The translations under genes and the position numbers were made by a program. Positions 21,186 to 63,004 of a stretch of DNA of 64,000 bases are shown here, piece after piece. The notes below the pieces were generated by a model, which saw only the letters and a list, made by a program, of their open reading frames with translations, was not told the origin of the DNA and searched no databases. The stretch comes from Mitsuaria sp. 7. Its GTDB lineage: Bacteria > Pseudomonadota > Gammaproteobacteria > Burkholderiales > Burkholderiaceae_C. Positions within the stretch are counted from its first letter, which is position 1; the number at the start of each line of letters is the position of its first letter. Location of the stretch: positions 3,180,279 through 3,244,278 of the forward strand of contig NZ_CP011514.1 of NCBI RefSeq assembly GCF_001653795.1, written 5' to 3'.

Positions 21186-21262
21186 CTTTCGCTCACCTCT
21201 GCCCCGGCTTCCGGAGCTATCGGCTGGTTATGAACCTTCCGCGACACGGCTTGACCGGTTGG
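21186..21262 (-). promoter_or_regulatory. structured 5' leader of sucA, candidate sucA RNA motif
   Basis: Just upstream of the ATG the minus strand carries GGTT-CAT-AACC, then GCTCCGG-AAG-CCGGGGC (7 bp with one G.U pair), then the ribosome site AGAGGTGAG. A further stem GGCGG/CCGCC lies at about 21260-21277. A conserved 'sucA motif' RNA overlapping the ribosome site has been described upstream of sucA in Burkholderiales. Position and architecture fit, but I could not compare it with the covariance model. Confidence 0.45.
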
Positions 21263-21458
21263 CGGATTGCGACCCGCCTTTGCTGTTGCCAGAAAAGGGG
21301 TACGGGAAGGACCTGAAGTCACAAGCGCAGGACTGTAGCACCACGCTGGAACCCGTGCTGTTGCGGGTTCGCCCACTTCTTGTGCGTCCTGTGAATGACA
21401 GGGGTCAAGCGAACGAATGCTTACGGGACCCTCACACCGGCAAGCGACTCACAAACGT

Positions 21459-41199: not shown

Positions 41200-41287
41200 T
41201 GGTGCCTCGAACGGGACTCGAACCCGTACGCCGGTTGAGGGCGGCGGATTTTAAGTCCGCTGTGTCTACCAATTTCACCATCGAGGC
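41200..41287 (-). tRNA. tRNA-Leu (anticodon UAA)
   Basis: The acceptor stem GCCTCGA/TCGAGGC, D-loop GAAATTGGTAGAC, anticodon stem-loop GCGGACTTAAAATCCGC (TAA at 34-36), long variable arm, T-loop GTTCGAGTC and encoded CCA are all intact. It is last in the tRNA cluster and sits behind a terminator. Confidence 0.97.
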
Positions 41288-41351
41288 GCGACGACTCCGC
41301 ATCGATTCCATGTCGGAGTGAGCGCGCATTATCACGGCCGCCGGCAAAGAA

Positions 41352-41379
41352 AAAAGGGAAGCCGATGGGCTTCCCTTTT
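41352..41379 (-). terminator. intrinsic terminator inside the tRNA cluster (after the third tRNA-Gly)
   Basis: AAAAGGGAAGCC-GATG-GGCTTCCCTTTT, a perfect 12-bp stem, is followed on the minus strand by TTTCTTTG. It lies between a tRNA-Gly and tRNA-Leu. Confidence 0.85.
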
Positions 41380-41386
41380 GAGAGTT

Positions 41387-41462
41387 TGGAGCGGGAAACG
41401 AGGCTCGAACTCGCGACCTCAACCTTGGCAAGGTTGCGCTCTACCAACTGAGCTATTCCCGC
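41387..41462 (-). tRNA. tRNA-Gly (anticodon GCC), copy 3
   Basis: 76 nt including CCA. GCGGGAATAGCTCAGTTGG leads into the anticodon loop CTTGCCAAG, then T-loop GTTCGAGCC. It is identical to the copies at 41512 and 41765. Confidence 0.97.
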
Positions 41463-41511
41463 ATCGCAGGACAGCGGAATGATGAATCACCCCACCGACC
41501 TTTGGTGTCGT

Positions 41512-41587
41512 TGGAGCGGGAAACGAGGCTCGAACTCGCGACCTCAACCTTGGCAAGGTTGCGCTCTACCAACTGAGCTATTCCCGC
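41512..41587 (-). tRNA. tRNA-Gly (anticodon GCC), copy 2
   Basis: 76 nt including CCA, identical in sequence to the neighbouring Gly-GCC genes. It lies 49 bp from copy 3 with no terminator between them. Confidence 0.97.
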
Positions 41588-41600
41588 AATGTCCATTCTT

Positions 41601-41674
41601 TGGAGGCGCGATCCGGAGTCGAACCGGACTGACCGGATTTGCAATCCGGGGCATAACCGCTTTGCTATCGCGCC
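41601..41674 (-). tRNA. tRNA-Cys (anticodon GCA)
   Basis: 74 nt including CCA. Acceptor GGCGCGA/TCGCGCC, anticodon stem-loop CCGGATTGCAAATCCGG, T-loop GTTCGACTC. It is 13 bp upstream of Gly copy 2. Confidence 0.97.
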
Positions 41675-41729
41675 CCAGAACCCTGGACGGGATTCTGTAG
41701 AAGCCGGATGTGGTTGTCCGACCTCGATA

Positions 41730-41757
41730 AAAAATGGAAGCCTGGGCTTCCATTTTT
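41730..41757 (-). terminator. intrinsic terminator inside the tRNA cluster (after the first tRNA-Gly)
   Basis: AAAAATGGAAGCC-TG-GGCTTCCATTTTT gives a 13-bp stem with a T-rich 3' trail (TTATCG after it). Its core GGAAGCC/GGCTTCC is the same as in the terminator at 41352. Confidence 0.8.
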
Positions 41758-41764
41758 TTAAACC

Positions 41765-41840
41765 TGGAGCGGGAAACGAGGCTCGAACTCGCGACCTCAA
41801 CCTTGGCAAGGTTGCGCTCTACCAACTGAGCTATTCCCGC
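41765..41840 (-). tRNA. tRNA-Gly (anticodon GCC), copy 1
   Basis: 76 nt including CCA, first gene of the cluster, about 80 nt downstream of the predicted start of transcription. Its own terminator follows. Confidence 0.97.
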
Positions 41841-48384: not shown

Positions 48385-48471
48385 TGGTGCGCGGGGCCGG
48401 ACTCGAACCGGCACGCCCGTGAAGGCGTCAGGACCTAAACCTGGTGCGTCTACCAATTTCGCCACCCGCGC
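48385..48471 (-). tRNA. tRNA-Leu (anticodon UAG)
   Basis: Acceptor GCGCGGG/CCCGCGC, D-loop GAAATTGGTAGAC, anticodon loop TTTAGGT (TAG), long variable arm, T-loop GTTCGAGTC and CCA encoded. A possible promoter -10 (TACAAT) lies ~130 bp upstream near 48605. tig may be cotranscribed with it. Confidence 0.96.
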
Positions 48472-58578: not shown

Positions 58579-60120
58579 TCAACCTTGGGCGGCGACCCGC
58601 TCCGTCTTGCTCTGCAACTTGTTGAGAGCGCTCAAATATGCTTTGGCCGAGGCGACCACGATATCGGGATCTGCCCCCACGCCGTTCACCACGCGCCCCG
58701 CATGTTGCAGGCGCACCGTGACTTCGCCTTGCGATTCTGTGCTGCCGCTGGTGATCGCACTGACCGAATACAGCAGCATTTCCGCCCCACTTTGGACCTT
58801 GCTCTCGATCGCCTTGAGCACGGCGTCCACTGGACCGTTGCCGTCGCTCTCCGTGCGGTGCTCGGTCTCGCCCTCGGCGAAGACCACCTGCGCCTGCGGC
58901 CGTTCACCGGTTTCGGAGCGCTGCGCCAGCGCCACCAGCCGGTAATGTTCCTGGAGGTGGGTGACCGACTCATCCATCACCAGCGCGATGATGTCCTCGT
59001 CGAAGATTTCGGACTTGCGGTCGGCCAGGTCCTTGAAACGGACGAAGGCGGCGTTGATCTCTGCCTCCGATTCCAGCACCACGCCCAATTCCTGCAGCCG
59101 CTGCTTGAACGCATTGCGGCCCGACAGTTTGCCCAGCACGATCTTGTTGGCGCTCCAGCCGACGTCCTCGGCGCGCATGATCTCGTAGGTATCGCGGGCC
59201 TTCAGCACGCCGTCCTGATGGATGCCCGACGCATGCGCGAAGGCATTGGCGCCGACCACGGCCTTGTTCGGCTGGATCACGAAACCGGTGGTCTGCGAGA
59301 CCAGCTTGGACGCCGGCACGATCTGCGACGCATCGATCCGCACGTCCAGGCCGAAGTAGTCGCGGCGGGTCTTCACCGCCATCACGACCTCTTCCAGCGA
59401 GCAGTTGCCGGCACGCTCACCGAGGCCGTTGATGGTGCACTCGACCTGCCGCGCGCCGCCGATCTTCACGCCAGCGAGCGAGTTCGCCACCGCCATGCCC
59501 AGGTCGTTGTGGCAGTGGACGCTCCAGATCGCCTGATCGGCATTCGGAACGCGCTCGCGCAGCGTCTTGATGAACTGTCCGTAGAGTTCCGGGATCGCAT
59601 AGCCGACCGTGTCGGGGATGTTGATGGTGCGCGCGCCCTCGCGGATCACCGCCTCGACGACACGGGCGAGGAACTCCGGATCGGATCGGTAGCCGTCCTC
59701 GGGTGAGAACTCGATGTCGTCGGTCAGGTTGCGGGCAAAGCGGACCGCCTGGGTCGCCTGCTCCAGCACCTGCTCGCGGGTCATGCGCAGCTTCTTCTCC
59801 ATGTGGAGTTCGCTGGTCGCGATGAAGGTATGGATGCGCGCGCGGGCTGCGCCCTTGAGCGCCTCGGCGGCGCGGGCGATGTCGCGGTCGTTCGCACGGG
59901 CCAGCGAGCAGATCGTGCTCTCGCGGATCGCATCGGCGATCGCCTTCACCGCTTCGAAGTCGCCCTGGCTCGCCGCCGCGAAGCCGGCCTCGATCACATC
60001 CACCTTCAGACGTTCCAGTTGACGCGCGATGCGCAGCTTCTCGTCCTTGGTCATGGACGCGCCGGGCGATTGCTCGCCGTCGCGCAGCGTGGTGTCGAAG
60101 ATGATCAGTTGGTCGGACAT
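58579..60120 (-). CDS. leuA: 2-isopropylmalate synthase, bacterial type I
   Basis: LeuA condenses acetyl-CoA with 2-ketoisovalerate, the first step of leucine synthesis. The 513-residue product starts [20 protein letters not shown] at 60120 (AAGGAAG upstream), the TIM-barrel metal-binding start. [17 protein letters not shown] (metal HxH) and a C-terminal leucine-binding regulatory domain ([19 protein letters not shown] onwards) follow. It lies 94 bp after the second synthase gene, and a hairpin GGGCGGC/GCCGCCC in that spacer could reduce read-through. Confidence 0.96.
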
Positions 60121-60214
60121 GTCGAGGCTTCCTTGCGGTGGCGGGCCGCGGGCCGTCTCGGCCCGGTCAGCGAGTTTAGGCGGCACAAGGGCGGCGCAGC
60201 GGCCGCCCTCGACC

Positions 60215-61900
60215 TCAGACAGCGACGCGGTCGGCGAGCTTCAGGACACCGCGCTGCGACGCGCGGCGCAGCCCGGAGACGATCGCCTTCAGCGAGGCCG
60301 AGGCGATGTTGCCGTCCATGCCGACGCCGAACAAGGTCGCCTCGCCCACGCGAAGCTCCAGGTAGGCCACCGCCTGCGCGTCGGCGCCGCTGCCCATCGC
60401 GTGCTCGTGATAGTCCAGCACCCTCACCTGCGTCTTCAGCAGCTTGTTCAGGCCCTCGACGAAGGCGTCGATCGGCCCCTTGCCCTGCCCGTCGATCTTG
60501 ACCATGCGCACGCACAGGTCGGCCTGCGCCTGGACGCGGGTCTGGCCGTCCTCGGCGGTGTCGATCTGCGGGTGCAGCGACGGCGCCTGCTTCACACCGT
60601 ATTCGCGGTCGAAGATCCGCCACAGGTCGGCCGCGCCGAGCTCCTTGCCGTTGGTGTCCATCACGCCCTGGACGATCTGGCTGAACTCGATCTGCAGGCG
60701 GCGCGGCAGTTCGATGCCGTATTCCGCCTCGAGCAGATACGAGATACCGCCCTTGCCCGACTGGCTGTTGACGCGGATCACGGCCTCATAACTGCGACCC
60801 AGGTCCTTCGGGTCGATCGGCAGGTACGGGATCTCCCAGACGTCGCCTTCCTTGCGGGCGGAGAAGGCCTTCTTGATCGCGTCCTGGTGCGAGCCCGAGA
60901 ACGAGGTGTAGACCAGCTCGCCGACATACGGATGGCGCGGATGCACGGGCAACTGGTTGCAGTGCTCGACGCAGCGGCGGATCTCGTCGATGTCGGAGAA
61001 ATCCAGCTCCGGATGGACACCCTGCGTGTACAGGTTGAGCGCGACATTCACCAGGTCCAGGTTGCCGGTGCGCTCGCCGTTGCCGAAGAGGCAGCCTTCG
61101 AGACGGTCGGCGCCGGCCATGATCGAGAGCTCGGCGGCGGCCGTGCCGGTGCCGCGGTCATTGTGCGGGTGCACCGACAGCACGATGCAGTCGCGGCGCG
61201 CGACGTTGCGCCCCATCCACTCGATCATGTCGGCGAACAGGTTCGGCGTGGAGTGCTCGACCGTCGACGGCAGATTGATGATGATCTTGCGCTCCGGCGT
61301 CGCGCCCCACGCTTCGGTCACCGCGTCGACGACACGCTTGGAGAAGCTCAGTTCGGCGCTGGAGAACATCTCCGGCGAGTACTCGAAACGGAAGTCCGTC
61401 TCCGGCTGCTTCGCAGCGAACTCGCGGATCATCCGCGTGTGGGTGACGGCCAGGTCGACGATCTCGTCCTCGCTCATGCCCAGCACGACGCGGCGCATCA
61501 CCGGCGCCACGGCGTTGTACAGGTGGACGACCGCCCGCTTGGCGCCGACCAGCGATTCGAACGTGCGTTCGATCAGTGGCTGGCGCGCCTGCGTCAAGAC
61601 CTGGATCGTCACGTCGTCAGGGATATGGCCCTGCTCGATCAGCAGCCGCACGAAGTCGAAATCGGTCTGCGACGCGGACGGGAAACCGACCTCGATCTCC
61701 TTGAAGCCGATCTTCACCAGCATCTGGAACATGTGCAGCTTGCGCTCGGGGTCCATCGGCTCGATCAGGGCCTGGTTGCCGTCACGCAGGTCGGTGCTCA
61801 GCCACAGCGGCGCCTTCGTGATCTGCACGTCGGGCCAGCGGCGGTCCGGGAGGGCGATGGGGGCGAAAGCGCGGTACTTGGTCTGCGGTTGCTTGAGCAT
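60215..61900 (-). CDS. leuA: 2-isopropylmalate synthase, second (long, fungal/actinobacterial-like) type
   Basis: This is a different subfamily from its neighbour. The 561-residue product starts [20 protein letters not shown] and has [20 protein letters not shown] (metal-binding start with Asp), [20 protein letters not shown] (HxH), [20 protein letters not shown] and a C-terminal allosteric domain. AGGAA lies 9 nt before the ATG. It is preceded by a leucine attenuator and its own promoter, and can also be read from pssA. Having both types in tandem suggests different feedback or expression roles. Confidence 0.95.
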
Positions 61901-61927
61901 GAGAGCGTTCCTGTGGGTTCAGGGGGC

Positions 61928-61986
61928 GCAACTCGCAGACTCTCCAGAAACAGGAACGGCCCGTTGCGAGTTGCATTCGGGCCGTT
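61928..61986 (-). terminator. attenuator terminator and alternative hairpin of the leuA2 leader
   Basis: The terminator pairs AACGGCCCG (61986-61978) with CGGGCCGTT (61963-61955), followed by CCTGTTTC. Segment 3 GGCCCGAA (61983-61976) can instead pair with segment 2 UUCGGGUU (62039-62032) as antiterminator. A further 10-bp helix GCAACTCGCA (61974-61965) with TGCGAGTTGC (61937-61928) encloses the terminator's 3' arm and would exclude it. Confidence 0.75.
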
Positions 61987-62025
61987 GATCTGGGATGAGC
62001 GTCTGGATGGACGGACGTGCGCGAT

Positions 62026-62082
62026 CTAGCGAACCCGAAGGTCACCTAGTAGTAGCAGCGCAATTCGGGCCGGGGACGTCAT
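62026..62082 (-). CDS. leucine leader peptide (attenuation leader for leuA2)
   Basis: An 18-codon open frame reads MTSPARIALLLLGDLRVR then TAG. Four successive Leu codons (CTG CTA CTA CTA, 62058-62047), three of them CTA (normally rare in such G+C-rich DNA), make it a leucine sensor. Segment 1 of the attenuator, GGCCCGAAT (62071-62063), lies inside it and can pair with segment 2 (62039-62032) to form a pause hairpin. A ribosome stalled at the Leu codons would mask segment 1 and free segment 2 to block the terminator. No ribosome site precedes it. Confidence 0.8.
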   Translation of the reverse strand: MTSPARIALLLLGDLRVR

Positions 62083-62090
62083 AGCTGTTG

Positions 62091-62120
62091 AATATAGAGG
62101 CGCGGCGCGTGAAGCGTCAA
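62091..62120 (-). promoter_or_regulatory. sigma70 promoter of the leuA2 leader
   Basis: On the minus strand TTGACG (62120-62115), an 18-nt spacer and TATATT (62096-62091) match the consensus at five of six positions each. The leader ATG begins 8 nt after the -10, so the transcript may start at or within 2 nt of the ATG. Confidence 0.8.
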
Positions 62121-62155
62121 CGTCAGTGGACGAATCGCCGCGCCGTGAGCATTCG

Positions 62156-63004
62156 CTATCGGTGAAGGCCCGCTTCATCGGGCTCGTCGGTGGACATGGC
62201 GATCACGCTGGCCGGCTTGCCCTTGGCGCGCCGGACTGCGTAGACGACATAGCCCGAGATGCCATACGCGCAGAAGACGCCGAACAACACCCGTGGCGGG
62301 TCGATGTTGATCGCCGCAATGGCCAGCATGATCACCACCAGCACGATGAAGGGTACCGAGCGCTTGAAGGTAATGTCCTTGAAGCTGTAGAACGGCGCGT
62401 TGGTCACCATGGTCAGGCCCGCATAGAGCGTGAAGCCGAAGGCCAGCCACGCAAGCGTCGGATCGCGGTGGATGTCCTTGTAGCCCGAGCTGTCGAGCGC
62501 CCAGATCAGGCTCATCACCAGCGCTGCGGCGGCCGGGCTGGGCACGCCCTGGAAGAAACGGCGGTCCACCACCCCGATATTCGTGTTGAAGCGCGCCAGG
62601 CGCAGCGCGGCACCGGCGATATAGACGAAAGCCGCGAACCAACCCCACTTGCCCAGGCCCTGCAACGCCCACGAATACATGATCAGCGCTGGCGCCGCAC
62701 CGAACGAGACCATGTCGGACAGCGAGTCCATCTGTTCGCCGAAGGTGCTCTGCGTGTTGGTCATGCGTGCGACACGGCCATCCAGGCTGTCGAGCACCAT
62801 CGCCGCGAAGATGCCATAGACGGACTGCTCGAAGCGGCCGCCTATGCCCATCACGATCGCGTAGAAGCCGCTGAACAGCGCCGCCAGCGTGAAGAGGTTG
62901 GGCAGCAGGTAGATGCCCTTGTGGCGCGGGCGCTGCGGAGCATCGAGGCCGTCCGCCTCGTCCTCGTCGAGCAGGTCCACGCTCTTGTTTTCGGTCGAAT
63001 TCAT
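62156..63004 (-). CDS. pssA: CDP-diacylglycerol-serine O-phosphatidyltransferase
   Basis: PssA makes phosphatidylserine, the precursor of phosphatidylethanolamine. The 282-residue integral membrane protein has the CDP-alcohol phosphotransferase motif DSLDGRVARMTNTQS...FGEQMDSLSD (Asp residues all present) and about eight hydrophobic segments. It sits between ilvC and leuA2, an association found in many betaproteobacteria. Its stop is only 35 bp from the leuA2 promoter's -35 box. Confidence 0.95.
   Translation of the reverse strand: MNSTENKSVDLLDEDEADGLDAPQRPRHKGIYLLPNLFTLAALFSGFYAIVMGIGGRFEQSVYGIFAAMVLDSLDGRVARMTNTQSTFGEQMDSLSDMVSFGAAPALIMYSWALQGLGKWGWFAAFVYIAGAALRLARFNTNIGVVDRRFFQGVPSPAAAALVMSLIWALDSSGYKDIHRDPTLAWLAFGFTLYAGLTMVTNAPFYSFKDITFKRSVPFIVLVVIMLAIAAINIDPPRVLFGVFCAYGISGYVVYAVRRAKGKPASVIAMSTDEPDEAGLHR

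Follow-up and report, generated by a model that had tools for sequence, protein, structure and literature searches.

The leuL leader of the enterobacterial leucine attenuator contains rare CUA codons. For Shewanella, an attenuator upstream of leuA has been predicted (PMC2659441). In Actinobacteria, the LEU element consists of a leucine leader peptide and a pseudoknot upstream of leuA, and its mechanism was left open in the account given of it (Seliverstov et al. 2005, PMC1262725); the leuA leader of S. lividans is described as leaderless and without a typical terminator in PMC8079986. Compared by description, the LEU element is the closest known system to the one analyzed here, which lies upstream of the leuA2 gene of Mitsuaria sp. 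7. We propose, with a probability of about 0.7, that leuA is controlled here by a ribosome-mediated leucine attenuator, in which the leader ORF is leaderless and a pseudoknot forms past the terminator. Its parts, their conservation and their covariation are documented by comparison with related sequences.

The window, i.e., the whole stretch of DNA that was analyzed, comprises 64,000 nt of a genome close to Roseateles noduli (98% identical LeuA). The gene order on its minus strand is ilvC, pssA, leader, leuA2 and leuA1 (Table 1). The leuA1 gene scored 696 bits with NCBIfam TIGR00973 on 58579-60144 and is possibly co-transcribed with leuA2. Two types of 2-isopropylmalate synthase gene thus stand in tandem behind a single leader (58579-61900, minus strand). 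The promoter agrees well with the sigma-70 consensus, at 10 of 12 bases, and promoter-like sites at that level occurred on average 0.1 times in shuffles of the region, in agreement with the near-consensus promoter recognized in the initial annotation, whose segment coordinates and sequences also proved correct on re-reading. The leader element had no Rfam match in the window at the gathering cut-off, and RF00512 (Leu leader) gave no match up to E 5 in 61800-62300. Elsewhere on the minus strand of the window, Rfam identified a sucA RNA motif at 21190-21272 (RF01070, 85.6 bits) and five clustered tRNA genes plus one further (41203-41840 and 48388-48471). An HDV-like ribozyme (CPEB3 match) scored 14.6 bits against a cut-off of 35 (E 0.53) and was taken as a chance match.

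Table 1. Positions in the window of the leuA genes and the elements of the leader region.
Feature	Position	Strand	Basis or remark
leuA2, 2-isopropylmalate synthase of TIGR00970 type, controlled gene	60215..61900	-	NCBIfam TIGR00970, 780 bits, over cut-off
leuA1, 2-isopropylmalate synthase of TIGR00973 type, directly 3' of leuA2	58579..60120	-	start from sequence reading
Promoter TTGACG-18-TATATT	62091..62120	-	10/12 consensus bases; predicted start about 7 nt past the -10, next to the leader ATG
Leader ORF MTSPARIALLLLGDLRVR, 18 codons + TAG, predicted leaderless	62026..62082	-	sequence reading, comparison
Regulatory Leu codons CTG CTA CTA CTA	62047..62058	-	sequence reading; CTA bias in relatives
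Segment 2 TTCGGGTT, the antiterminator strand, partner of 61983-61976	62032..62039	-	closing pair covaries, 121/139 paired
S1 (terminator stem), 5' arm AACGGCCCG, including segment 3 (GGCCCGAAT, 61983-61975)	61978..61986	-	99.1% of cells paired, 37 sequences
S2 5' arm GCAACTCGCA, in terminator loop	61965..61974	-	alignment, tree
S1 (terminator stem), 3' arm CGGGCCGTT, including segment 4 (CGGGCC, 61963-61958), then interrupted U-tract	61955..61963	-	sequence reading, alignment
S2 3' arm TGCGAGTTGC, past terminator, ends 27 nt before leuA start	61928..61937	-	alignment, tree

For comparison, the best 80 of 326 related loci were retained, of which 79 had upstream DNA (L021 did not) and made up, with the window, a first set of 80. 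The full comparison set comprises 143 elements including the window, corresponding to 139 distinct sequences. The leader peptide with four Leu codons that had been read from the sequence is present in the window at 62058-62047, and a leader ORF with a Leu run precedes leuA in 143/143 elements (139 distinct). CTA accounts for 342 of the 639 leader Leu codons in these elements and for none of the 141 Leu codons of leuA1, leuA2, pssA and ilvC in the window. The leader stop codon is TAG in 112/143 elements, and a GCGCACGCGC-like sequence is often found 3' of it. Pairing between the Leu codons and the stop region was considered and found not convincing (mean 13.2 for own sequences, 12.8 swapped, 11.0 shuffled). 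In 135/139 distinct elements, the end of a TAnnnT motif lies 6-10 nt 5' of the leader ATG; in the four exceptions (L082, L171, L177 and L184) an inner ATG had been chosen, and an in-frame upstream ATG lies at the usual distance. A transcript starting about 7 nt past the -10 would begin at or beside the AUG, and the leader ORF is thus predicted to be leaderless. A strict Shine-Dalgarno motif was found 5' of the leader ATG in 1/139 elements, and a lax motif in 17/139, compared with 115/139 before leuA.

The pairing of segments 3 and 4 into a terminator stem, as previously read, is strong: the stem is present in 80/80 of the first set (the window and 79 loci) and in 143/143 elements including the window. 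A terminator pattern scan of the region found no terminator, and the tail GUUCCUGUUUCU after the strong stem is interrupted in the window; the 12 nt 3' of CGGGCC contain seven T residues there, the median of 139 elements being eight. The leader fold as a whole is not unusually stable, with 24 of 200 shuffles folding at least as well. Segment 3 is part of both the terminator and the antiterminator, which are therefore mutually exclusive. The antiterminator closing pair, between the base before the leader CGGG and the base after the terminator GCCCG, is formed in 121/139 elements, versus a mean of 95 and a maximum of 107 in 5000 shuffles. With the terminator base first and in DNA letters, its states are T:A (100), A:T (10), C:G (7) and T:G (4). 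On the LeuA2 tree, five double compensatory changes were found at this pair, and 9 of its 18 changes led to an unpaired state.

To follow the switch, the nascent RNA was folded before the terminator 3' arm exists, with the ribosome placed as a mask; the edge of a stalled ribosome was set, by assumption, 11 nt past the codon. With the ribosome on the first Leu codon, the 2:3 pairing exceeded 0.5 in 121/141 elements, and without a ribosome in 33/141; with the ribosome at the stop codon it did so in 0/141, which holds by construction because the mask removes segment 2. The corresponding values for the window are 0.9996, 0.68 and 0 (the last again by construction). As the 2:3 pairing stands at 0.68 even without a ribosome, shut-off in the absence of translation would be weak there. 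Once its 3' arm has been made, S1 wins (median 0.98), so the switch works kinetically, like that of classical attenuators. A GGG motif lies 8-12 nt past the last Leu codon in 119/140 elements. As far as sequence comparison goes, the CTA-rich Leu run, the covarying antiterminator, the conserved terminator and a spacing that would free segment 2 when the ribosome is held early together give good support to leader-peptide attenuation of leuA. While a ribosome is stalled on the CUA-rich Leu codons, segment 2 would be free to pair with segment 3 before the terminator 3' arm is made, and RNA polymerase would pass. A ribosome reaching the stop codon would cover segment 2, and S1 would form and terminate transcription. 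The leucine response itself is inferred from this arrangement.

The interrupted U-tract of the window might mean that termination is poor in this species and that control is mainly translational, as has been proposed for the actinobacterial LEU element, and Actinobacteria also have a pseudoknot upstream of leuA together with a leucine leader peptide (PMC1262725). However, the wider set retains both the terminator stem and the covariation of the antiterminator. Furthermore, the stem of the LEU element between the Leu codons and the Shine-Dalgarno sequence was not found here: 2/139 elements were at ≤2 of 50 shuffles, and the mean was 9.2 for own sequences and 10.1 for shuffled ones. Mainly translational control is therefore quite unlikely in our judgment, and we retain the attenuation mechanism described above.

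Segments 1 and 3 were said to share an identical nonamer, and both indeed read GGCCCGAAT (62071-62063 and 61983-61975). The 8-bp helix that segment 1 can form with segment 2 (GGCCCGAA/TTCGGGTT) is found only in the window and in L003, its 98%-identical relative. The statement that segment 2 can pair with either partner thus stands for the 2:3 pairing, which is conserved with a covarying closing pair, and is confined to these two sequences for the 1:2 pairing. A helix of at least 6 bp holding the GGG, between segment 2 and the leader 5' of the Leu codons, is possible in 23/141 elements, and a 1:2-type helix reaches the shuffle threshold (≤2 of 50) in 5/141, no more than expected by chance. In L016 and L168, other helices, of 6 and 7 bp, can form at this place, each at 1 of 50 shuffles. 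No conserved pause or 1:2 hairpin was found by RNAalifold in two subgroups. Segment 1 was therefore rejected as a conserved part of the device, and the exact four-segment logic of trp- and leu-type attenuation proposed in the initial annotation is not supported for these elements. When relatives are checked for the three helices, the 2:3 closing pair covaries and the 3:4 stem is conserved, but the 1:2 helix is not.

Two conserved features were missing from that account, namely the predicted leaderless start and a pseudoknot involving the terminator loop. In the window, the loop sequence GCAACTCGCA (61974-61965) is exactly complementary to TGCGAGTTGC (61937-61928) past the terminator, giving a helix, S2, that crosses S1. 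In a first per-locus test, S2 was at ≤5 of 100 shuffles in 66/80 loci. An alignment of 37 sequences showed the 11 S2 pairs formed in 90.4% of cells, compared with 19-58% after a slide of 1-3 columns, and 22 cells changed on both sides versus 7.6 in shuffles. At least 7 of 9 S2 pairs are formed in 134/143 elements (131/139 distinct); across the 143, the arms make up 64 different pairs, with 24 different 5' arms. Among the nine elements below this level, five (L033, L034, L052, L157 and L161) show good pairing once the register is shifted. In three others (L172, L207 and L208) S2 is weak or has been lost, and L096 also has no good shifted register.

The S2 tree comprised 92 of 109 LeuA2 elements, leaving out 17 of the AACCGCAGC type, in which S2 has a 1-nt bulge. 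On this tree, 21 double compensatory changes were reconstructed for S2 versus 0-2 at slides of 1 to 4, and 40 of its 74 changes led to an unpaired cell, many of them at helix ends. A swap control based on duplex energy was moderate, with 25/143 own pairs in the best 5% and a median swap fraction of 0.09, because many loops share GCAGC/GCTGC. With 9-mers, all nine pairs form in 2.6% of swaps and eight in 29%, whereas own arms reach 9 of 9 in 54/143 and 8 in 46/143. The slid-register and tree tests are cleaner controls than the swaps. The arms are inverted repeats in the DNA as well, so S2 could in principle be a DNA-level palindrome (an operator) or a chance inverted repeat. Such an origin is hardly credible, however, considering that between 6 and 34 nt separate the S1 core from the 3' arm, that the arms change yet stay complementary in the 64 arm pairs, and that double compensatory changes far outnumber those of the slid controls. 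We therefore continue to treat S2 as an RNA helix. The terminator loop (61965-61976 and relatives) also keeps TGC...GCA, a possible 3-bp mini-stem that would need to open for S2.

The S1 3' arm directly follows the S2 5' arm, which is preceded by a short loop. The stretch past the S1 core to the S2 3' arm has a median of 17 nt and is mostly 14-19 nt. Together, S1 and S2 are predicted to be an H-type pseudoknot that would be possible only in read-through RNA. Because the S2 3' arm lies at least 6 nt past the S1 core, it would as a rule be unmade at the termination decision, so that S2 must act on read-through RNA. When pseudoknots are disallowed, S1 is favored over S2 by a median of 8.3 kcal/mol, and the opposite holds in only 4/143 elements. 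With S1 so much more stable, coexistence of the two helices is the easiest way to account for selection on S2. Alternatively, S2 might replace S1 in antiterminated RNA and in this way lock segment 3 in a state free for segment 2. The window's clade, in which S2 has up to 12 pairs and L1 only 2-3 nt, lends some weight to this possibility, since an L1 of 2-3 nt may be too tight for the full S1 and a 12-pair S2 together. Replacement is nevertheless unlikely in view of the energy difference, and transcription no longer needs S1 open after the polymerase has passed. We thus prefer the pseudoknot, with S1 and S2 present at the same time.

In read-through RNA, the S1 loop would pair with a strand about 27-32 nt before leuA and complete the pseudoknot. 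The role of this structure is inferred from its position. The S2 3' arm is a median of 29 nt from leuA (IQR 27-32) and would end near the edge of the initiating ribosome; for this reason we tentatively favor, as the most likely role of S2, a further brake that acts after termination and limits the initiation of leuA translation in leaked transcripts. The spacing (25-75%) is tight before leuA2, at 27-31 nt, and loose before leuA1, at 25.5-43 nt, and the looseness before leuA1 weakens the translation reading. A somewhat unlikely alternative is that translation is not the target and that S2 instead shields read-through mRNA from RNases or from the loading of Rho onto its untranslated leader. It would suit the presence of S2 in read-through RNA only, where it structures about 130 untranslated nt from the leader stop to leuA, but protection by itself would need no terminator loop as a partner. 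The terminated leader could also be a small RNA acting in trans via its loop, with the S2 3' arm of the leuA strand among its targets. The loop would be exposed in terminated RNA, and the part of PMC7298713 on the trp attenuator RNA of S. meliloti reports that it acts in trans. However, the exact 10-mer occurs 12 times in the Mitsuaria genome, two of these being the arms of the element, versus 57 for the reversed control (exact sites, one genome), which makes action in trans very unlikely. The brake on translation initiation therefore remains our favored, tentative role.

A covariance model for genome searches was built on the core from the terminator to S2. In the window's own genome it gave one strong match (E 1.2e-13), the next best being at 0.0024. 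Matches at E 1e-5 or better were found in 194/299 sampled genomes of the family, covering 103/141 genera. This number is probably a lower bound, since G093 carries the element (L114) and yet its best model match has E 3e-4 and lies on the opposite strand. Sixty family elements were hand-picked from the listed matches at E 2.3e-8 or better, weaker matches being left out, and all 60 fetched matches lie upstream of a 2-isopropylmalate synthase gene, either leuA2 or leuA1. One genome (G242) has its own element before each leuA type (L155 and L156). An order-wide search with the model matched 71/200 genomes at E 0.01 or better and was noisy; a leuA gene was found at 3 of the 26 loci checked (L092, L096 and L114). 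L092 and L096, which belong to another family (f10), adjoin leuA, and S2 was not evident in either. Judged from these sequences, a leucine attenuator of leuA common to many relatives looks real.

Leu attenuators of Betaproteobacteria may be among those listed in an earlier survey (Vitreschak et al. 2004), so the attenuator as such may already be known; the pseudoknot and the leaderless start are the parts for which we found no description in the open-access literature. No description of this betaproteobacterial element was found in the open-access full texts as far as they were covered by our search, nor in the parts consulted of PMC6123439 and of the RNA-discovery surveys PMC11109978 and PMC8632094. 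The terminator of an attenuator is commonly regarded as its last step, and a terminator loop selected to pair with RNA that exists only after failed termination calls for a function after read-through. One possible overall view, which we put forward tentatively, is a two-checkpoint leucine switch. The terminator hairpin of a leaderless-leader attenuator would serve a second time, as one half of a pseudoknot that represses leuA translation or determines how long the mRNA lasts, and mRNA that leaked through would thus remain under control. Such a switch would be widespread in the family, before either leuA type, and would parallel the actinobacterial LEU pseudoknot by descent or convergence.

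Compared with known systems, the element resembles the enterobacterial leu attenuator (leuL, RF00512) in having a Leu leader peptide, an antiterminator and a terminator. It differs from leuL in the predicted leaderless leader and the extra pseudoknot, and no conserved 1:2 hairpin was found in it. The Shewanella attenuator likewise has a leader peptide, an antiterminator and a terminator before leuA, according to the section of PMC2659441 that describes it; its own feature is an anti-antiterminator stem with compensatory changes, and the predictions of that study excluded pseudoknots. The S. meliloti trpL attenuator offers a parallel for the start of the leader, as its transcript begins at the ATG of the leader ORF and is therefore leaderless, but it senses tryptophan, and a terminator-loop pseudoknot is not mentioned in the part of PMC7298713 that deals with it. 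The LEU element lacks an obvious terminator and contains a base stem between the Leu codons and the leuA Shine-Dalgarno sequence (PMC1262725, as far as the element is described there), unlike the element analyzed here. Both have a Leu-run leader peptide upstream of leuA (143/143 elements in our set) and a conserved pseudoknot between the leader and leuA, a likeness at the level of description. The element precedes both 2-isopropylmalate synthase types and may help to explain the leuA pseudoknot of Actinobacteria.
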